Source of the DNA: Hyphomicrobiales bacterium
GTDB lineage: Bacteria > Pseudomonadota > Alphaproteobacteria > Rhizobiales > Rhizobiaceae
NCBI GenBank assembly: GCA_900474095.1
Contig: UCOA01000033.1
Coordinates: 1-63,186 of the forward strand
Reading direction: 5' to 3'
DNA length: 63,186 nt
Of this stretch, positions 54,751-63,186 are shown piece after piece. Below the pieces are notes generated by a model that had not been told where the DNA came from, did no database searches, and worked only from the letters and a program-made list of their open reading frames with translations. The translations under genes were made by a program, and so were the position numbers. Position 1 is the first letter of the stretch; each line of letters opens with the position of its first letter.

Positions 54751-55527
54751 ATGGCAAATGAAGCTCTGGCATCAAAACTGACCGTCTCGTCCACGGACGT
54801 CGCCATCGAAATCATCGGCATGAACAAGTGGTATGGGGATTTCCACGTTCTGCGCGATATCAATCTGAAGGTCATGCGCGGCGAGCGCATCGTCATCGCT
54901 GGTCCCTCCGGTTCCGGCAAATCGACGATGATCCGCTGCATCAACCGTCTCGAAGAGCACCAGAAGGGCAAGATCGTCGTCGATGGTATCGAGCTCACCA
55001 ACGACCTGAAGAAGATCGACGAAGTGCGCCGTGAAGTCGGCATGGTTTTCCAGCACTTCAACCTCTTCCCGCACCTGACCATCCTGGAAAACTGCACGCT
55101 GGCCCCCATCTGGGTGCGCAAGATGCCGAAGAAGCAGGCTGAAGAGGTCGCCATGCACTTCCTGAAGCGCGTCAAGATCCCGGAACAGGCTCACAAATAT
55201 CCGGGCCAGCTCTCCGGTGGTCAGCAGCAGCGCGTGGCAATCGCCCGTTCGCTCTGCATGAACCCGCGCGTCATGCTGTTCGACGAGCCGACATCGGCGC
55301 TCGATCCGGAAATGATCAAGGAAGTGCTCGACACCATGGTCGGCCTTGCCGAAGAGGGCATGACGATGATCTGCGTCACCCACGAAATGGGCTTCGCCCG
55401 TCAGGTGGCCAACCGCGTCATCTTCATGGACCAGGGCCAGATCGTCGAACAGAACGAACCGGCTGCCTTCTTCGACAATCCACAGCACGAGCGCACCAAG
55501 CTGTTCCTCAGCCAAATCCTGCACTAA
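54751..55527 (+). CDS. aapP: General L-amino acid ABC transporter ATPase AapP
   Basis: A 258-residue ATPase that powers AapQM. Walker A is [12 protein letters not shown], the Q-loop is [10 protein letters not shown], the signature is [15 protein letters not shown], Walker B is [13 protein letters not shown] and the H-loop is CVTHEMGFA. All motifs are intact. It closes the aapJQMP operon; in rhizobia this system also influences amino acid efflux and is needed for bacteroid nutrition together with Bra. Confidence 0.97.
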
Positions 55528-55622
55528 GCGCATCGCGTCAAAACGGGTTCATGCGATACGGTTTAGGCCTTTGTTTATGCATGTCGTTGTCCCAAAACCG
55601 CTGCACACTTTTGGGCGACATG
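55528..55622. repeat. Rhizobial intergenic palindromic repeat (ATGTCG...CGACAT type)
   Basis: Directly after the aapP stop, GCATCGCG...CATGCGATAC forms one imperfect palindrome, and CATGTCGTTGTCCCAAAA with TTTTGGGCGACATG (55580-55622) forms a second around CCGCTGCACAC. I recognise this composite as a frequent intergenic element of Rhizobium, of the RIME/ABC mosaic kind. Confidence 0.7.
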
Positions 55623-55657
55623 GATTAATCTGCAGCGATCCCAACAGTGTCCAAAGT

Positions 55658-55687
55658 AGAAAGCCCCGCGACGTCGCGGGGCTTTCT
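55658..55687. terminator. Perfect 30-base palindrome ending the caspase operon
   Basis: AGAAAGCCCCGCGAC and its exact complement meet without a spacer at 55658-55687, between the convergent aapP and caspase genes. The hairpin can form on both transcripts, so it probably ends both. Tails are short (ACTTTGG on the minus strand, GGCTTCTG on the plus), so strength is uncertain. Confidence 0.75.
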
Positions 55688-55708
55688 GGCTTCTGAAGAC
55701 GTTCAGCC

Positions 55709-57265
55709 CTATTCTATCGTGTATTTCAGCGTTCCCAGGGACCATCGCAATCCGCGATTTTCGGCATCACCCGTCCATGTCTTCTGGAGCTTGGCGACGA
55801 TCTCACTCAGGCTTTTTCGCGCGTCGAGTTCGGTCTTCAGTCCCTGCGCCGCGGGTGCGACATCGCGCAAATCGAGATCGTCGCTGACGACGATGGCCAC
55901 CAACATGTTTTCGCCGCTGCCATCGGCTTCAAAATCAAAGCCGTAATAGTCGTCCGGAATAGTCAGCGTCGCGCCCGCCGACAACGGCGTTATCTTCTGC
56001 GCCATCTCATTCGGGAAAATCTGCGTCGCGACACCCTCGCCATTCACGTCGAGCAGCACCAGATGTCCGTCATGCTTGCTGGTGACGGAAATCTTGAATG
56101 ACTGGCCCTTTTTCAGCGTAGGACCGGTATCGAGCGAAATCGCCACCTCGCCGATATCCGCCTTGCCGACGATGTCGCTGATGGCTGCTACGGGATTTGC
56201 ATCGACGTACGCGGATGTTGTTCCTGCATCGACCTTCGCCTGCTGGTACACCGGCTCTGGTTTGGACTGGTCCGTTGTCGTTGCGGTCTGTTCCGTTTTG
56301 TACGGTTCCGGCTTGGCAACGCTGGTGCCGAGCGCATCAGGCACGCTCTCTAACTGTGGATCGAGATTGTCGCAGTTTTCCTGCGCCGAACAATATTCCT
56401 TGGACTTCGTCGTCACATACTGGAAAAGCTCGGCATTGCTCACCAGACCGTTAGAGTTTCCATCCGATTCCGAAGGTTTGTAGCCGGCTACATAAGCTGA
56501 AGTGAAAACGCCGTGGCGGTCTTCGATCGGCAACCGCACATCGTCCCAGGCGACCTGATAGGGGGCGGCGGCGCTCCAGGCGGTGACGCCACCGGCCGTT
56601 AGTTCCGCCGGCTTGTCGACGACACCCAGATCGATCCGCAGGCCTCGTGTTGCATTGTTCTTCAATGTGTTAGCGAAAGGGCGCGGCAGGTAACGCGCGC
56701 CGCTCATGCCCGAAAGCTGCTCAGCCGACAGGGAGCGGGAGATCGTGCCCGAATGGCAGGCGTCGATCACCAGCGTCACCGTCCTGCCCTTCATCTTCTC
56801 CAGAAGCGCCTCGAGATCGTCGTCGAGGATGACATTCGTCCAGTCCGCCTCGCCAGCCTTGATGTCGAAGGTGGACAGAGCCTCGTCCATCCCATCCTCC
56901 TCATCCTTGGTGGCGTCCTTCACCTGCAGGCCATGCCCGGAAAAGTAGAAAAAAATCCGGTCGCCGGGCGCCGTCCCGGCAATCAGCCAATCATTGACCG
57001 AGGACAGGATCGCCTCGCGACTGGCCTTGCCGTCAGTCAAGACGCGGATGGCTTCCGGCTTGAAGGACAGCGTGCGGGTCAACAACGCCTCGATCGCCTT
57101 CACGTCGTTCTTCGGCCCATGCAGAAACATATCTTCCGGCAGATTTTCGTACGTGCCGATACCAACCAGCAGCGCCCGATCCTGCGCCTTTGCCGCCAGC
57201 GATTGCGTCAACAACAACGCCAGCGCACCGGACAGCAATTTGGACACGGTTCGCGGCAGGGCCAT
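55709..57265 (-). CDS. Exported caspase-family peptidase 2 with DUF4384-like C-terminus
   Basis: A 518-residue C14-family (metacaspase/orthocaspase) protein. The signal peptide is residues 1-27 (ending LAAKA), so the enzyme should be periplasmic. The catalytic pair is His111 in FFYFSGHGLQ and Cys170 in VIDACHSGT; the acidic metacaspase segment DEEDGMDEAL lies at 121-130, which in the family favours basic P1 residues. Residues 268-279 (DGNSNGLVSNAE) resemble an EF-hand loop. A Ser/Thr/Glu-rich linker (310-370) leads to a beta-rich C-terminal module (GQSFKISVTSKHDGHLVLLD then PNEMAQ) of DUF4384 type. Its ATG overlaps the stop of caspase 1 by one base. Targets are unknown. Confidence 0.88.
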   Translation of the reverse strand: MALPRTVSKLLSGALALLLTQSLAAKAQDRALLVGIGTYENLPEDMFLHGPKNDVKAIEALLTRTLSFKPEAIRVLTDGKASREAILSSVNDWLIAGTAPGDRIFFYFSGHGLQVKDATKDEEDGMDEALSTFDIKAGEADWTNVILDDDLEALLEKMKGRTVTLVIDACHSGTISRSLSAEQLSGMSGARYLPRPFANTLKNNATRGLRIDLGVVDKPAELTAGGVTAWSAAAPYQVAWDDVRLPIEDRHGVFTSAYVAGYKPSESDGNSNGLVSNAELFQYVTTKSKEYCSAQENCDNLDPQLESVPDALGTSVAKPEPYKTEQTATTTDQSKPEPVYQQAKVDAGTTSAYVDANPVAAISDIVGKADIGEVAISLDTGPTLKKGQSFKISVTSKHDGHLVLLDVNGEGVATQIFPNEMAQKITPLSAGATLTIPDDYYGFDFEADGSGENMLVAIVVSDDLDLRDVAPAAQGLKTELDARKSLSEIVAKLQKTWTGDAENRGLRWSLGTLKYTIE

Positions 57266-58803
57266 CAGAGCTTTCCCCGAGTATAAAGAGGCTGGATCGC
57301 AACGCTTGTATCGGTACCGTCGATCCGCGTCATCAGCAGCTGCTGCACAATCGAGGCGTCGACATTCCTGCTCGCCAAAGCAGCGCCGATGGCGTCGATC
57401 GGCTCATTGGTCGAAAGGGCGATGAGGTGATCGGCACCAAAAGGTTCGACCACCTGCAAGTCCGTCAGCTTGAACTCATGGCTTTCCGTCCCTTCCGCCT
57501 GCACGTCGAGTAATTGCACCTCTCCGGTATTGGCGAGATTGAAGACGATCATGTTTTTGTATGCGGAAGCCGGTGCGTCGAAGGCAATACGGTCACCGGC
57601 CGCATAGATATCCTTCTGCGGTGTCAGCGACACGGCACCGGGATTCTGGCTGGCCATCGCCTTCAGAAAATCGAGCAATATGAATTTGTTGACGACCGCC
57701 TGAACATTGCTTGCCGCTATATTTTCACCGGCAACATCGCCGTTCGGCGTATAGAAGACACCGCTCGCCGCATCCCAGCGATATGGTACGCCGCTGCCGC
57801 CGGTATTTTCCGGAACCATTTGCGAGCCGCTGATGGTCAGCGCCAGCTTACCGTCCCAACCGGTGTCCCTCACGGGCTTGTGCGTTTTCTGAACGCTTGG
57901 ATCGGCCGCGGCTGCGACGCTGCGGGTAAGCGGCATTACCACCTCGTCCTCGGAGCGCGGCACTTGCGGCGTGAAATTCGGGATCTGCAGGGCTTCGGAC
58001 TGGTGTTTCACATTGGCAAAGACATAATCCTCCAGTTCCACCCGGGAGATACGGCCATCCTGGTTGCGATCCGCCGATCCCTCGACCGCGCGGGCAAAAC
58101 TCCAGCTTAGGGCGCCGCGCGCCTCGCCGCCGATGATGACCTCGGGCGAAGGCTGGCTTTCCAATGAGGCGGCAAGCACCGTCACCTGACGGAATTGCGC
58201 CTCCTTGACCTGAGCCCCCGAGACCGCCTCCTCAGACGGTGGCGGCAGTTTGACGGTGACGGCTTGGGCTAGGCGCGTCTTGCCGGAAAAAGAGCGGCTC
58301 ATACCGCCGGAATGGCAGCTGTCTGACACGAACAGGACATGCACGCCCTTGGCCTCCGCTTGGGAAAACCAGGCGTTCAGCTCGTTGTCGACAATGATCT
58401 CGTGATCGGTCTCCTCAGCGCGGCTGCGGTCAAAGCCGGGCAGTTGCAGAAATTCGTCGAGGCCATCCGCCTCATCCCCGGAAACGAGCTCCGGCATCTG
58501 TGCGCCGTGGCCGGCATAGGTGAAGATGACCGTATCGCCTTTGCCAGCCGCATCAACGAAACCCGTCCATGCAGCGCGGATATCATCCTTGCGTGCGGCC
58601 GCGTCGAAGAACGTCGCCATCTGGTCAACACCTGCTTGCCGCAACGCGCCTTCGACGTCCCGCGCATCCTTCACCGCGCCGTCAAGGCTCACCTCATGGG
58701 GATAGGCGTCGATGCCGACCACCAGGGCATAGGTCTTCGCCGAAGCGGCACCGAGCGGCGCGGCGGAGATCAGGAGGGAAAGGAGCAAACCGCGCAGCAT
58801 CAC
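57265..58803 (-). CDS. Exported caspase-family peptidase 1 with EF-hand-like loop
   Basis: A 512-residue C14-family peptidase. The signal peptide is residues 1-22 (MMLRGLLLSLLISAAPLGAA). The catalytic His99 is in FTYAGHGAQ and Cys163 in VSDSCHSGGMS, with DEADGLDEFLQLPGFD between them as in metacaspases. Residues 245-256 read DRNQDGRISRVE, a near-perfect EF-hand calcium loop followed by LEDYVF. The C-terminal third (about 390-512) is beta-rich and resembles the DUF4384-like ends of its operon partners. It starts right after the OmpA-like gene stop and overlaps the next caspase by one base. It is only distantly similar to caspase 2. Confidence 0.88.
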   Translation of the reverse strand: MMLRGLLLSLLISAAPLGAASAKTYALVVGIDAYPHEVSLDGAVKDARDVEGALRQAGVDQMATFFDAAARKDDIRAAWTGFVDAAGKGDTVIFTYAGHGAQMPELVSGDEADGLDEFLQLPGFDRSRAEETDHEIIVDNELNAWFSQAEAKGVHVLFVSDSCHSGGMSRSFSGKTRLAQAVTVKLPPPSEEAVSGAQVKEAQFRQVTVLAASLESQPSPEVIIGGEARGALSWSFARAVEGSADRNQDGRISRVELEDYVFANVKHQSEALQIPNFTPQVPRSEDEVVMPLTRSVAAAADPSVQKTHKPVRDTGWDGKLALTISGSQMVPENTGGSGVPYRWDAASGVFYTPNGDVAGENIAASNVQAVVNKFILLDFLKAMASQNPGAVSLTPQKDIYAAGDRIAFDAPASAYKNMIVFNLANTGEVQLLDVQAEGTESHEFKLTDLQVVEPFGADHLIALSTNEPIDAIGAALASRNVDASIVQQLLMTRIDGTDTSVAIQPLYTRGKL

Positions 58804-59694
58804 TCAGTTCTCCACATCGACGTCAACGCGCCGGTCCATCTGGTGCAGCGTCTCCTCGTCATAGGCGTTGGCATCGTCAGCCTTGAATGGCTCATCCTCG
58901 CCTTTGCCCAAGGTTTGCCATTGTCCCGCATATCCCTCGGCGACAAGATAGTCGGCTAGCGCGTCGGCCCGCTCCAGCGACAGCGCTCGGTTGGCTTCGG
59001 CACCGCCCACCGGGTCCGTATGACCGATCAGCGTGATCGCCTTCGGCTTCACCGATTTGAGGCATTCGGAAAGGTCTTTCGCCGATTGCAGCCCCTCCGG
59101 CGTGAATTCTGCGGTGCCGAAAACGTATCGCACCGGTGTCGATTTCTTCTTTAGCGAAACACCGCGATAGCTAATCTTGCAGGCGCCACGCATGGCAAGT
59201 TTCACGGGCCTCGGCGCCGCCAGCCGCATCTCGGTCGATATATGATCGAGCCGGACGATATACTTCTCGTCCGGCGCCATCCAGTCGGGCGTCAGCACTT
59301 CGTTTGACGCGTCCTCCAGTGCCAGCTGGTAATAACGCGCTGCGGCCTCATAGTCCCGTTGGTCGCGGTTGATATCGCCGAGCGCGTCGAAAACCTGCCA
59401 AGGCGCGGCATTGCTCGTGCGGATCGTTTCGAGCTCCTGTTCGAAATCAGCCAGGTTGGCGCCCTGCCCGACGGCGCCGACAATCCGGTTGAACGATGCC
59501 AGAGCCGCCACGCGGTTGATCATCGCCTTGTCATCCGCCGTGCAGCCCGGCGCCGGGCCGCCAGCAATCTGTTTGGCCCGCGTCTCGTCTCCTGCATTGG
59601 TCGCATCGGCAACCTGCGCCAAAGCTTCGCATGACGCCGAAACCGGCCCGGCAGAAAACAACGCCAGCAGAGATGTGACAATCAGCATTCTCAT
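58804..59694 (-). CDS. Periplasmic OmpA-domain protein with TPR-like region
   Basis: A 296-residue protein with a signal peptide (MRMLIVTSLLALFSAGPVSA). Residues 95-130 look like a TPR repeat (QVFDALGDINRDQRDYEAAA). The C-terminal OmpA/MotB domain has ITLIGHTDPVGGAEANRALS and LERADALADYLVAEGYAG, with the Asp and Arg that bind diaminopimelate in peptidoglycan, then DRRVDVDVEN. There is no beta-barrel and no lipobox, so it should be soluble and hold partners to the cell wall. The ATG at 59694 is best, with GGAG six bases before it. It lies between the cytochrome and caspase genes. Confidence 0.88.
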   Translation of the reverse strand: MRMLIVTSLLALFSAGPVSASCEALAQVADATNAGDETRAKQIAGGPAPGCTADDKAMINRVAALASFNRIVGAVGQGANLADFEQELETIRTSNAAPWQVFDALGDINRDQRDYEAAARYYQLALEDASNEVLTPDWMAPDEKYIVRLDHISTEMRLAAPRPVKLAMRGACKISYRGVSLKKKSTPVRYVFGTAEFTPEGLQSAKDLSECLKSVKPKAITLIGHTDPVGGAEANRALSLERADALADYLVAEGYAGQWQTLGKGEDEPFKADDANAYDEETLHQMDRRVDVDVEN

Positions 59695-59759
59695 TGTGTT
59701 CTCCATGCCATTCCATGCTGCCGTGGATCGTCGTCCAGCCGCCGATGGCGGCCGGTTCA

Positions 59760-62700
59760 TTATTGCTTGATTTCGAACGTCACAACCTGCAGGCCGCTTG
59801 CGCCCTTGTCATCCTCTGCCTTCTTCGCAAGGTTGATGGCGAGCCCGCGCGTCGGCGGCAGATGCGAGTCTGCCACCAGCTGGCGCGCCCGTTCCACCGT
59901 GAGCTTCTGGTCGCCAAGCCCGCCCTGGCGACAAAAGGCGATCATCGTCTCGGCGGGTGCCGGTGTGTCGAAGGTGAGGTTTCCGGTGCCCGGCTGCGGG
60001 ATCTGGCGCTTCTCGCCGGCCTGCAACGTGGTATTGCCGATCATCGCATCTGGTATGACCTCGACATTGCCTGTCTCCTCGACATAGAGCACCTGCAGTT
60101 CGCAGGCCTTGTTGGAGCTCAGCTCGAAAGATAGCTGATCGCCGACTTTGGCCGTGGTCGAAGCCACCTGAAGCGCAAGTTCCAGTTTGCCTTCCGCCGG
60201 TTTTTCCTGGCGATAGGCCGGCGTTGCCTGCGCAATCGTCTCCGCTTTGACGGGGGTCTGCTGGGCGGACTGGCCAGCGACCTCCTGGGTCTGGGCCGTC
60301 GCCGCAACCTTGACCGTTGTCGTGTCGAGTGCCTTCAGCTGCATCAGCGGCGACAGAAGCAGCGGGAATTGCTGTTCGACCTCGGCGCGCGGGATAGTTC
60401 CGCCCGCTTCCAGCGTCGTCACCCAATCGAGCCCCAGCCGCAGCACATCGACATCCTCGACCCGCTTGATCGTCGCTGAAAACTCGTCCGGCTTCATGTC
60501 GAATTCCGCCGCCAGAGCTTCGAAATCGAGTTCGTCCTCATATTTGTCACCGAAATAGGTGACGAGTTCCGCGTTGCCCGGCGCCAGCATGCTTTGCGCG
60601 CTGCCATCCGGGGTCGGCTCGGTCACGCCAAGCTTCACAAGAGCTTCGACAAAGCGCTGCCGATCCTTGTTATAGGCAGTGTCGAGCTCTTCCTGCGGCA
60701 CGTACATGTCGAGCAGGATCGCCTGCTGATCCTTGCTGAACAGCGTCGAGGTCTCGATATGCTCGCGCAGCTGGTCGCGCTTCGATAAGATGCCGTTGGC
60801 ATGACAGTCGAAGCAGGAGCGGGCATTGGTGATCTCGACGCCCTTGCCGATCGGCCGCTCGCGGAACGAGACGATGCTGGTAGGGCCGACGTCGAGCTGC
60901 TTTCCTTCCGCGTCGGACAGGTAATATCCTTGCAACCCGTTCGGCAGCGAGAAGATCATTTCGCCGCCGTCATGCTGGAAGGCGGTCAGGCTGGCATCGA
61001 GCGGCTCGATCTCCTTCGGGCCATGCGGGAAGCGTTTCAACACCTGCTTGCCGACATCGCCGCCGAAATCATAGGATTTCCAGTAGTAGCCGCCGAACGG
61101 CATGTCATGGCGTTCCAGCATGCGGTTGTGATCCGACACCCCGGACGAACCATCGGCGAATCCGGCTCTGAGCACCTGACGGCGGCGGATGTTCTCATCC
61201 ACGTTGATCTGGAAACGCTTCTCGAGCTCCCGGATTTGGGTCGGCAGTTTCATCACCTGATTGTAGATCTTCGGCTTGGCGGCATTGGCCATGAACCAGT
61301 CGATGCGCATGATCGGCAAGACGGTATCCGTTTCCTTGGTCAAGGCCAGCAGCGAAGCGTCGCTCGCTGGATCGACGCCATAGAAATATTGCGAGATCAG
61401 AAAGTTATAGTCCTCGGCCGACCATTGCAGGTCGCGAAGGTCGACGCGCACCATCAGGCCGTTGGTTCCCTCGACTTCCTGCGGCAGCACCAGCTTCGGG
61501 CCATAGGACAGCGAGTTCAGGAGCTTCTTGAAGCCGCCGGCCAGCACCTCCATGCGCTTCATGAAGGTCTTGTCCGCCTCGCAGCCCATCATGCCGTTGT
61601 ACTGGTTGCGATAGGAGAAATAGCGCATGTGTTTCCGGTCGAGTTCGCCGACCAAGGAAATGTCCTTCAGACCCGCCTCGATGAAGTCGCCATAGGATAG
61701 CATCGGCCGGGTTCGGTCCGGCTTCGTCGCAGCCGTCTGCGGCAGGTTCGACTGATTGAGCGAATTGATCCAGTCCTCGAGGCTTTTCACTTCCTCGGCG
61801 GTCGGTCGCTTGCCGAGCGGCATACGGCCGCTGGTCACGGACGTGAACAGCCGGGATTTCGAGGCATCGCCGGGAACCACGAAGGCGGCGTCTGCGGCGA
61901 TCGATTTCAGGTCGCCGGTCGAGTAGCTGCCCTGCGAGCTTTCACCCGGCCCGTGGCAATTGCGGCAATATTTGCCGATGAAGGCATCAGCCTGCACCGC
62001 CAATGCTGCATTGTCTCCCGACAACGCGGCTTCCGGCGTGCTTTCCTTGCAGACGGCAGTCGCCGATTGTGCAACCGGTTCCGGCGGCTTGACCTCACGG
62101 TCTGACAGGAAGGCATAGATCGCCGTCCTGTCCTTTTCCGTCAGCTTCGACAGGCCGTGGGCGATCTCGCGCATCACCGGATCCGTCAGCGGCGCGCCGG
62201 ACAGCTTCTTGCCTTCGTCGATCAGCCCGACGGTGAAGACTTCGGGAGAGGCAAGGCTTGCCATGCGCGCCCTGGTGATATCGGGCGCAACCGCACCGGT
62301 CAGACCCTTTTCGCCGGCATAGGCGTTCTCGACATCGAGGCCGTAGGTGGTGGTTCGGGGCGTATGGCAATCGCCACAGCCACCGACGTTTTCGACAAGA
62401 TAACGACCGCGCTCCATCTGCGTCTCTTCGCGCGACTGATACACGGGTACATTGAAATGACTGCGCTTCCACAGCGTAATCGTCGTCTGGCGGCTATAGG
62501 GGAAGGCGATCTCGTGTTCCTGCGAGACGGCATCGGATTGCACCAGCGTGTCGATATAGGCCTTGATGTCGAGAACGTCTTCCGGCTTCATGCCGCCATA
62601 GGATGTATAGGGCATGACCGGATAAAGATGGTTGCCGTCGCGGTCGATGCCCTGCATCACCGCGTTGAGAAACTGCGCATTGCTCCAGCCGCCGATGCCA

Positions 62701-63005
62701 TTGGTATGCGGTGAAATATTCGGCGCATAGAACTTGCCGATCGCCGTATCCATCTCCATGCCGCCGGAAAGCAACTCCGTATTGCTCCCGGACCCGTGGC
62801 AGGCGCCGCAGCCCGCTGCGCTGAACACATATTTCCCGTTGTCCACATTTGCCTTGTAGGTCGCATAGGCATCATCGGCAAAAGCATCGCGCGCGGAGGC
62901 TGTCTGCGGACAGTGCGCCATTGCCAGCACGGCCGCCGCCATCGCCAGCATATGTCGCGGCAGGCTGCGGATCATTTTCCCAGGCATTTGATCGAACACG
63001 CGCAT
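59760..63005 (-). CDS. Exported tetraheme cytochrome c with DUF4384-like C-terminus
   Basis: A 1081-residue exported protein. After a signal peptide (cleavage near ASA, residue 38) come four CxxCH sites: Cys66-His70 (CGACH), Cys210-His214 (CGDCH), Cys347-His351 (CRNCH) and Cys731-His735 (CFDCH). The first two lie in modules like the alcohol dehydrogenase cytochrome subunit (GIGGWSNAQFLNAVMQGIDR, MPYTSYGGMKPEDV), the third in a PSCyt1-like module. Residues 430-730 form a large domain I do not recognise (RYFSYRNQYNGMM, RVDLRDLQWSAEDYNFLIS). The last 170 residues match the DUF4384-like pattern of the caspases. AAGGGGA before 63005 sets the start. Confidence 0.87.
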   Translation of the reverse strand: MRVFDQMPGKMIRSLPRHMLAMAAAVLAMAHCPQTASARDAFADDAYATYKANVDNGKYVFSAAGCGACHGSGSNTELLSGGMEMDTAIGKFYAPNISPHTNGIGGWSNAQFLNAVMQGIDRDGNHLYPVMPYTSYGGMKPEDVLDIKAYIDTLVQSDAVSQEHEIAFPYSRQTTITLWKRSHFNVPVYQSREETQMERGRYLVENVGGCGDCHTPRTTTYGLDVENAYAGEKGLTGAVAPDITRARMASLASPEVFTVGLIDEGKKLSGAPLTDPVMREIAHGLSKLTEKDRTAIYAFLSDREVKPPEPVAQSATAVCKESTPEAALSGDNAALAVQADAFIGKYCRNCHGPGESSQGSYSTGDLKSIAADAAFVVPGDASKSRLFTSVTSGRMPLGKRPTAEEVKSLEDWINSLNQSNLPQTAATKPDRTRPMLSYGDFIEAGLKDISLVGELDRKHMRYFSYRNQYNGMMGCEADKTFMKRMEVLAGGFKKLLNSLSYGPKLVLPQEVEGTNGLMVRVDLRDLQWSAEDYNFLISQYFYGVDPASDASLLALTKETDTVLPIMRIDWFMANAAKPKIYNQVMKLPTQIRELEKRFQINVDENIRRRQVLRAGFADGSSGVSDHNRMLERHDMPFGGYYWKSYDFGGDVGKQVLKRFPHGPKEIEPLDASLTAFQHDGGEMIFSLPNGLQGYYLSDAEGKQLDVGPTSIVSFRERPIGKGVEITNARSCFDCHANGILSKRDQLREHIETSTLFSKDQQAILLDMYVPQEELDTAYNKDRQRFVEALVKLGVTEPTPDGSAQSMLAPGNAELVTYFGDKYEDELDFEALAAEFDMKPDEFSATIKRVEDVDVLRLGLDWVTTLEAGGTIPRAEVEQQFPLLLSPLMQLKALDTTTVKVAATAQTQEVAGQSAQQTPVKAETIAQATPAYRQEKPAEGKLELALQVASTTAKVGDQLSFELSSNKACELQVLYVEETGNVEVIPDAMIGNTTLQAGEKRQIPQPGTGNLTFDTPAPAETMIAFCRQGGLGDQKLTVERARQLVADSHLPPTRGLAINLAKKAEDDKGASGLQVVTFEIKQ

Positions 63006-63052
63006 GGCTTGTTCCCCTTGCTTTCTCAAACGATAAAATATGCGATGCGGTA

Positions 63053-63186
63053 TCAGCGGAACTCGAACAGCTCGAACTCGACCCGTCCGGGCTTTTTCCC
63101 GAGTTCTTTCAGTCCTTTTTCAATGGCTTTCCGTAGAGGCGGCGGCCCGCAGAACCAAAGGTCCGCCCCCGCCGGATCGACGGCGC
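63053..63186 (-). CDS. C-terminus of a ferric-reductase-like NAD(P)H/FAD oxidoreductase (partial)
   Basis: The last 44 residues of a protein whose start lies beyond the window. The reading is DPAGADLWFCGPPPLRKAIE, then KGLKELGKKPG, RVEFELFEFR and a stop. The FCGPxPLRxAI pattern is the NAD(P)H-binding end of ferredoxin-reductase-type flavoproteins, and the short FELFEFR finish is typical of ferric reductase/NOX-like membrane proteins. It ends 47 bases before the cytochrome ATG on the same strand, so it is likely in the same operon and could pass electrons to the cytochrome. The membrane part is not visible. Confidence 0.65.
   Translation of the reverse strand, partial: AVDPAGADLWFCGPPPLRKAIEKGLKELGKKPGRVEFELFEFR

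Follow-up and report, generated by a model that had tools for sequence, protein, structure and literature searches.

The right end of contig UCOA01000033.1 from a Hyphomicrobiales bacterium of the family Rhizobiaceae carries a cluster of five minus-strand genes that encode, in succession, a NOX-like flavoprotein (FRE), a cytochrome with four CxxCH heme motifs, an OmpA-domain protein and two metacaspase-type proteases, casA and casB. The whole contig, 63,186 nucleotides long, is the window analyzed here and belongs to a draft genome of 6.40 Mb (279 contigs, 99.7% complete). The cluster, conserved in some Rhizobium-group soil bacteria, recurs in its original order and in rearranged forms, and its caspases and cytochrome co-occur well beyond expectation. 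Our favored reading, held tentatively and with less than even confidence, is that the cluster is an envelope switch in which the cytochrome senses redox state or a small ligand and thereby controls casA, a protease that would depend on calcium and that casB probably regulates as its partner.

Conservation of the cluster

With the cytochrome alone as the query, 46 Rhizobiaceae loci were fetched from one genome per species; their records are named Rhizobium, Pararhizobium, Ensifer or Sinorhizobium, Shinella, Metarhizobium, or only "Rhizobiales bacterium." The FRE-cytochrome-OmpA-casA-casB order and strand are retained in 45 of these loci, three of which contain shortened genes (FRE and OmpA in L015, OmpA and casA in L050, and casB in L047). 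The exception, L052:4165-14292, comes from a distant Rhizobium metagenome-assembled genome (53% identical) and keeps FRE and the cytochrome; the OmpA protein beside them is a different one, and the two caspases there, of 886 and 551 amino acids (aa), are unrelated, as though other proteases had stepped into the role. The nearest relatives of the cytochrome are in "Rhizobiales bacterium R129_N" (97%) and Rhizobium giardinii H152 (96%; locus L020). The four complete genes of the window are under purifying selection, with pairwise ratios of nonsynonymous to synonymous substitution rates against five relatives of 0.06-0.10 for the cytochrome, 0.08-0.11 for OmpA, 0.06-0.11 for casA and 0.12-0.15 for casB. 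Neighbors resembling cysI and aapP are retained in many of the Rhizobiaceae loci.

In other families of the order, the cytochrome exists in a split form, with a two-heme protein of about 305-365 aa (cytN) and a two-heme protein of about 600-950 aa bearing heme motifs 3 and 4 (cytM) encoded apart. We searched 297 genomes sampled evenly across the order, counting casA at E values of 1e-50 or better and seeking cytM with an alignment of the central domain; the best five cytM candidates per genome were scored, and the resulting counts are lower bounds. The cytM domain is present in at least 39 genomes and casA-type caspases in 38, and the two occur together in 16 genomes versus about 5 expected (Fisher P = 1.2e-6, related genomes not being independent). 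In 12 of these genomes, no more than about 12 kb separates the two genes; in the remaining four they are on different contigs, and in two of those (G150 and G144) near contig ends. Similarly, 17 of the 31 stretches fetched around cytM contain a caspase (L108 only weakly), as opposed to about 1.2 expected from the density of caspases (276 over about 145-148 Mb). An earlier reading made from this DNA alone (hereafter, the sequence-only reading) had set co-occurrence across genomes as a test, which its observation passes.

The arrangement of the genes varies beyond the Rhizobiaceae set. The order of the window also occurs in L086; L101 and L103 have cytM-OmpA-casA-casB; and L100, L102, L104, L105 and L109 have cytN-casA-casB-cytM-OmpA. 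In a genome from another order (G449, family f74), locus L116 reads FRE-cytochrome-OmpA-casA with a fused cytochrome, as in the window. The cytM domain was found in 2 of 289 genomes in a sample of the class and in 3 of 398 in a sample of the phylum, the window's own genome included each time; the other carriers, G449 and G859, both belong to f74, and the stretch fetched from G859 (L117) shows cytM only, whereas G449 has the caspase cassette. Protein searches, each scoring about 8000 best candidates, returned at least 1461 relatives of the central domain and, for the split form, at least 3432. Because OmpA-casA-casB is also found without the cytochrome, we regard the system as modular and patchy: the triad occurs without detected cytM in L146, L147, L148, L152 and L158. 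Conversely, among the genomes with cytM and no casA are eight from family f33; a caspase is encoded close by in none of them, and an OmpA gene in seven. The f33 loci (L089-L096 and L115) hold the cytochrome, in most cases with a divergent OmpA gene, and caspases are encoded elsewhere in these genomes. In L110 (11087-14465), a Crp-type regulator, a CHASE2-guanylate cyclase and a DUF928 protein are encoded between cytM and casB, a hint of cyclic-nucleotide control in that lineage.

Organization of the cluster

At the contig end, four complete genes lie tightly packed with a fifth, of which only the last 44 codons are present (Table 1). Taking the more likely start in each case, 47 bases separate the FRE stop from the cytochrome ATG and 65 bases separate the cytochrome stop from the OmpA start; there is no gap between OmpA and casA, and casA and casB share 1 base. 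A consensus scan of the minus strand from 55400 to 63186 detected no sigma-70-like site, which is weak evidence for a single transcript. Each of the four complete products starts with a hydrophobic segment, and an A-x-A triplet lies within or just beyond this segment (by a simple heuristic, not SignalP); the cytochrome, the OmpA protein and the caspases are predicted to be periplasmic. The packing described in the sequence-only reading (five minus-strand genes with gaps of 0-65 bases or 1-base overlaps) was confirmed, as were its CxxCH sites, OmpA motif and intact caspase dyads; in place of its signal peptides, the heuristic above shows signal-like N termini on the four complete products.

TABLE 1 Features of the cluster, with positions in the window
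Feature	Position	Strand	Remarks
NOX-like flavocytochrome (FRE), C-terminal 44 codons and stop	63053..63186	-	gene runs off contig
Cytochrome, 1089 aa, four CxxCH	59760..63029	-	TTG start; alternative ATG at 63005
Cytochrome residues 56-369, fructose dehydrogenase cytochrome subunit homologue	61923..62864	-	7w2j_C, E = 4.7e-39
Heme motifs 1, 2 and 3	62796-62810, 62364-62378, 61953-61967	-	CxxCH
Heme-4 domain (motif 4 at 60801-60815)	60708..61295	-	predicted fold nearest cytochrome P460/c'-beta
DUF4384 of cytochrome, residues 961-1032	59934..60149	-	Pfam 30.1 bits, cut-off 27
OmpA-domain protein	58804..59760	-	likelier start 59694; OmpA domain 58864-59127; weak TPR match
casA, metacaspase-type protease, His99/Cys163, DUF4384-like C-terminal tail	57265..58803	-	GTG start
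casA EF-hand loop DRNQDGRISRVE, residues 245-256	58036..58071	-	sequence motif
casB, metacaspase-type paralogue, His111/Cys170, DUF4384 at 55889-56116	55709..57265	-	
casB EF-hand loop DGNSNGLVSNAE, residues 268-279	56429..56464	-	sequence motif

Cytochrome

The cytochrome has a Cytochrom_C Pfam match of 49.5 bits (cut-off, 21.3), and its CxxCH motifs, at residues 74, 218, 355 and 739, are kept in all 47 aligned sequences (the window and the 46 loci). Its first unit aligns with the fructose dehydrogenase cytochrome subunit; there is no dehydrogenase subunit among the five cluster genes, and the remaining genome was not searched for one. The second unit (residues 430-870), which holds the fourth CxxCH, matches no Pfam family, and a DUF4384 domain lies at the C-terminal end. 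On sequence comparison with the split form, the cytochrome of the window unites in one protein a cytochrome of the fructose dehydrogenase type and a second, distinct two-heme family.

With Foldseek alone, neither model of the heme-4 region had a significant match. After structural re-alignment, the top four rows were P460/c'-beta proteins for both models, though the re-alignment covered 1000 chains each time and the absence of other families from it proves nothing. The single CxxCH of the heme-4 domain comes after the predicted sheet, and the predicted fold of this domain is closest to that of cytochrome P460/c'-beta.

Flavoprotein

Because the contig stops at 63186, inside the FRE gene, the full form of this protein was read from a relative, L009:7718-8977, which is 419 aa long and contains Ferric_reduct, FAD_binding_8 and NAD_binding_1 domains. 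Histidines 71, 85, 144 and 157, which form the H-x13-H and H-x12-H pairs that ligate heme in the bacterial NOX motif filter, do not vary in any of 47 rows (with L009 present twice), and FRE carries HPFT and GxGVTP motifs, as in bacterial NOX. All of the FAD, NADPH and histidine motifs of this filter, which was drawn from PMC5676040, were found in 45 of the 46 Rhizobiaceae loci, the shortened open reading frame (ORF) of L015 being the exception, and in 5 of 6 sequences beyond these loci, L116 being without the FAD motif. A hydropathy scan detected three separate regions above threshold (the filter has 3 to 7 transmembrane helices). Judged by these motifs, FRE is best described as NOX-like rather than as a ferric reductase of known function. 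Among the fetched stretches, FRE occurs beside fused cytochromes only.

Electron transfer from such a protein to a periplasmic partner would have precedents by analogy: SpNOX passes electrons straight to cytochrome c, and MsrQ is a NOX-like membrane protein that supplies periplasmic MsrP (PMC5676040). Upstream of FRE there is often a divergent gene for a serralysin-type RTX metalloprotease (Peptidase_M10_C, RTX repeats), as in L009:5600-7111 (minus strand), with similar genes in many of L010-L049; its calcium need would fit the EF-hand caspases described below.

Caspases

Both proteases match Peptidase_C14 in Pfam (72.3 bits for casB and 54.7 bits for casA; cut-off, 21.4), and both contain a p20 domain with an intact His/Cys dyad. 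casB matches metacaspase-1 (7qp0, E = 1e-16), and casA matches GSU0716 (E = 4.8e-10) and metacaspase-1 (E = 2.3e-7). As to a p10 domain, one weak second segment, residues 199-240 of casA, aligns to the C-terminal part of metacaspase-1. The caspases of these cassettes also contain the metacaspase stretches D-x-C-H-S-G and D-E-x-D-G-x-D-E, and by sequence casA and casB resemble eukaryotic metacaspases.

Within the Rhizobiaceae set, 44 of 46 casA rows and 45 of 46 casB rows have an EF-hand loop. Elsewhere, all 22 full-length cassette caspases have it, dead copies of casB included; the figure of 22 excludes three fragments cut by locus ends (L132, L136 and L142), in which the loop was not seen. 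It is present in none of 39 other caspase rows (a few rows in these counts being repeated copies), nor in L134. With the acidic metacaspase stretch, the loop provides sequence hints, and only these, of calcium control, and the calcium dependence proposed in the sequence-only reading gains support from them.

The cassette caspases also form distinct lineages. A tree was built from 78 of 94 rows, omitting 13 repeated fetches and three rows shorter than 200 residues and trimming from casB_L048 a false N terminus that came from its ORF start. It places casA (23 rows) on one branch with support of 100/99 and casB (21 rows) on another with 96/88. Together with L134, a long-branch row with a DACHSG motif that lies outside both branches, they split from 33 other caspases at 100/100, but a joint casA-casB clade without L134 has support of only 88/29. 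Active-site motifs in the cassettes are mostly D[AS]C[HFYN]SG, with a few HSA or H/F/Y-A-G variants, and those of the background caspases are of the DAC[RQ][NDE]N type or not clear. Three further caspases of the window's genome (C266, C164 and C87; loci L004, L005 and L006) have DACR[ND]NP-type motifs and no EF-hand loop and fall among the 33 other caspases.

The two caspases differ in how well they keep their catalytic residues. In the Rhizobiaceae set (the window and 45 loci), the dyad is intact in 45 of 46 casA rows, L050 being truncated, and in 43 of 46 casB rows, with changes of His to Gln in L030 and of Cys to Gly in L031 and a truncation in L047. Among distinct proteins outside the 46 loci (including L156, from the same family as the window), it is intact in 35 of 36 casA and 15 of 23 casB proteins, such that losses affect 8 of 23 casB versus 1 of 36 casA proteins (P = 0.0015, the lineages not being independent). 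Five of the eight casB losses are in family f50 (Gln/Ser or Glu/Ser), one is in f16 (Leu/Gly), and two are L155 and L156 (Gln/Cys). In the Ensifer loci L031, L030 and L047, casB is decaying or changing and casA is intact. Loss of the dyad with retention of the protein and its EF-hand is the pattern that would be expected of a regulatory partner.

Some relatives of the caspases carry other domains. In L155:6089-8947 (minus strand) and L156:7204-9753 (plus strand), casB relatives have an N-terminal trypsin domain, a caspase domain with His changed to Gln, and a DUF4384 domain behind it; protease work in these proteins may have moved to the trypsin domain. Near a casA without the cytochrome, L158:13134-16979 encodes a large caspase protein with matches to WD40-like repeats, Big_7, SH3_3 and PG_binding_1, and similar large caspase ORFs occur in L146, L154 and L162. 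These proteins may be an alternative input module.

OmpA domain and DUF4384 tails

The OmpA domain scores 49.2 bits in Pfam (cut-off, 27.2). DUF4384 was detected by Pfam in casB and the cytochrome, and comparison of the tails by hhalign gave 97% for casB versus the cytochrome, 90% for casA versus the cytochrome and 53% for casA versus casB; judged by this profile alignment, the casA tail is DUF4384-like. Present in some form on three partners, DUF4384 is a candidate assembly domain, and it thereby gains a role that can be tested.

Proposed function and alternatives

In the envelope switch, the flavocytochrome would carry NADPH electrons over the inner membrane and pass them to the hemes of the periplasmic cytochrome. 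That cytochrome would respond to redox conditions in the periplasm or to a small ligand (NO or peroxide, for example), with the fourth heme, in the P460/c'-beta-like domain, as the site at which ligand or oxidant is read. The DUF4384 tails would join the cytochrome and the caspases, and the OmpA protein would tether the complex to peptidoglycan. A change in heme state or in periplasmic calcium would then free the casA-casB pair to cut envelope proteins after basic residues, with repair, remodelling or self-killing as the outcome. We infer the export, sensing, activation and substrates of the module from its parts. A stronger version seems unlikely to us, namely, that one operon unites an NADPH oxidase, a cytochrome c and a caspase, all three hallmarks of cell-death signaling in animals, and that an NO- or peroxide-binding heme directly gates a calcium-dependent heterodimer of active casA and regulatory, often dead casB, held by OmpA on peptidoglycan. 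In that version the pair would resemble animal caspase-8 under the control of the pseudo-caspase c-FLIP.

Several counts weigh against a fixed unit: 22 of the 38 genomes with casA have no detected cytM, and 23 of the 39 with cytM have no casA. Within the window's own family, cytM is present in only 1 of 13 sampled genomes, namely, that of the window.

The genomes with cytM and no casA also favor the leading rival, an envelope electron-transfer or repair chain resembling MsrQ-MsrP, for instance in the detoxification of NO or peroxide, with the caspases as ungated housekeeping proteases that mature envelope proteins or clear damaged ones. The N-terminal heme unit of the cytochrome is of the dehydrogenase cytochrome type, a peroxidase-like c'-beta has been described (PMC11928373), and MsrQ-MsrP provides the precedent of a NOX-like protein supplying a periplasmic enzyme (PMC5676040). 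However, the same specialized casA-casB pair has been joined repeatedly and shares DUF4384-type tails, which argue for a physical link, and the repeated loss of the casB dyad from a retained protein suggests regulation over mere clearance. We consider this chain possible if rather doubtful.

The sequence-only reading had also raised a defense switch. In its fuller form, stress or infection would oxidize the cytochrome, and the caspases would then dismantle the envelope in a cell-death or antiphage response. NOX enzymes, cytochrome c and caspases are all parts of animal cell death, and the generic caspase model of PADLOC matches both proteases. Beyond this model, PADLOC returned only weak matches of MotB-type ZorB to the OmpA domain (E = 0.0016 and 0.022) and none for the cytochrome or flavoprotein, a result on which a defense system was rejected. 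Moreover, typical defense islands are not known for such stable neighbors as the cysI- and aapP-like genes, nor for such purifying selection, and the cytochrome, the OmpA protein and the caspases are predicted to be periplasmic. A switch of this kind is decidedly unlikely.

It is very unlikely that these genes are simply neighbors, perhaps co-transcribed, without functional coupling. The triad without cytM, and cytM without caspases, would be in keeping with this, but co-occurrence and adjacency lie far above expectation, in different gene orders as well, and the DUF4384-type tails are held in common. Chance neighborhood was rejected on the grounds of conservation, rearranged recurrence and co-occurrence.

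Metal reduction, also put forward in the sequence-only reading, would make the cluster an outer-membrane electron conduit with the caspases as passengers, for which a ferric-reductase-like transmembrane domain and a multi-heme cytochrome speak, but this was rejected as the main explanation for want of a porin or a many-heme (decaheme) cytochrome among the five genes, and, with the NOX motifs of FRE and the retention of OmpA and the caspases in rearranged loci, it is highly improbable.

Overall, the interpretation given in the sequence-only reading is partly supported: the genes keep company across genomes, the caspases have intact dyads and signal-like N termini, and calcium control has gained sequence hints. 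Its picture changes in that the flavoprotein is now NOX-like, the cytochrome a fusion of two families, and the caspases unequal, casB being repeatedly dead, and its metal reduction and defense find no support.

The cluster bears on the roles of caspase homologues in bacteria and on the signals that activate them. Genetically tractable rhizobia carry it as a well-defined system that recurs, in which heme is a candidate sensor, calcium (via the EF-hands) a candidate second signal, and OmpA with the DUF4384 tails a candidate scaffold, and the lineages in which casB is alive or dead provide a natural experiment. If the heme gates the protease, the envelope switch would be a redox- or gas-controlled periplasmic protease built from NOX, cytochrome c and caspase parts.

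Comparison with known systems

No description of a cytochrome-caspase-OmpA cluster was recognized in the open-access literature searched, in agreement with the sequence-only reading, which knew of no described system of this make-up. The closest operons are those of Asplund-Samuelsson et al. (2012, PMC3501461), who counted 14 operons with OmpA domains among 217 predicted for metacaspases and also reported alphaproteobacterial operons with more than one metacaspase. OmpA and multiple metacaspases are thus shared with the cluster, but the word cytochrome is absent from the main text of that paper, and the parts of it examined describe no NOX-like protein, EF-hand or casA/casB pair. In the iSTAND caspase conflict systems, too, caspases are found at the membrane in the neighborhood of OmpA, PEGA or Sel1 domains; as presented in the sections of PMC7159879 drawn on here, they are NTP-dependent ternary systems, whereas Pfam finds no such NTPase in the four complete genes of the cluster. 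A Bradyrhizobium diazoefficiens caspase, bll3611, belongs to the NnrR regulon (PMC6710368), which is a hint of NO that carries no weight in the readings above.

Among the electron-transfer components, FRE resembles the bacterial NOX and MsrQ proteins of PMC5676040 in its histidine pairs, HPFT and GxGVTP, and differs in being encoded with a periplasmic multi-heme cytochrome and caspases. The fructose dehydrogenase-type cytochrome subunit corresponds to the first unit of the cluster cytochrome, which, unlike that type, is fused to a second two-heme family and DUF4384 and has no dehydrogenase among the five genes. Cytochromes P460/c'-beta, which include a c'-beta with peroxidase-like activity (PMC11928373), are likened to the heme-4 domain by its predicted fold, in which a single CxxCH comes after the sheet.

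The caspases have two sets of described relatives. The QC-type pseudo-orthocaspases of Alphaproteobacteria have a trypsin-like domain, a Gln/Cys caspase domain and a terminal DUF4384, a domain named once in PMC6426788, on this clade. L155 and L156 share this make-up, so that part of the casB lineage has been described before. The casB of the window is unlike the QC type in its intact His/Cys dyad and lack of a trypsin domain, and no operon partner of the QC type appears in the parts of PMC6426788 considered. Type I (Mca1-type) metacaspases and prokaryotic orthocaspases have the His/Cys dyad, D-x-C-H-S-G and D-E-x-D-G-x-D in common with the cassette caspases, which are set apart from type I metacaspases by a signal-like N terminus, an EF-hand loop at the end of the domain, a DUF4384-type tail and an often dead paired paralogue.

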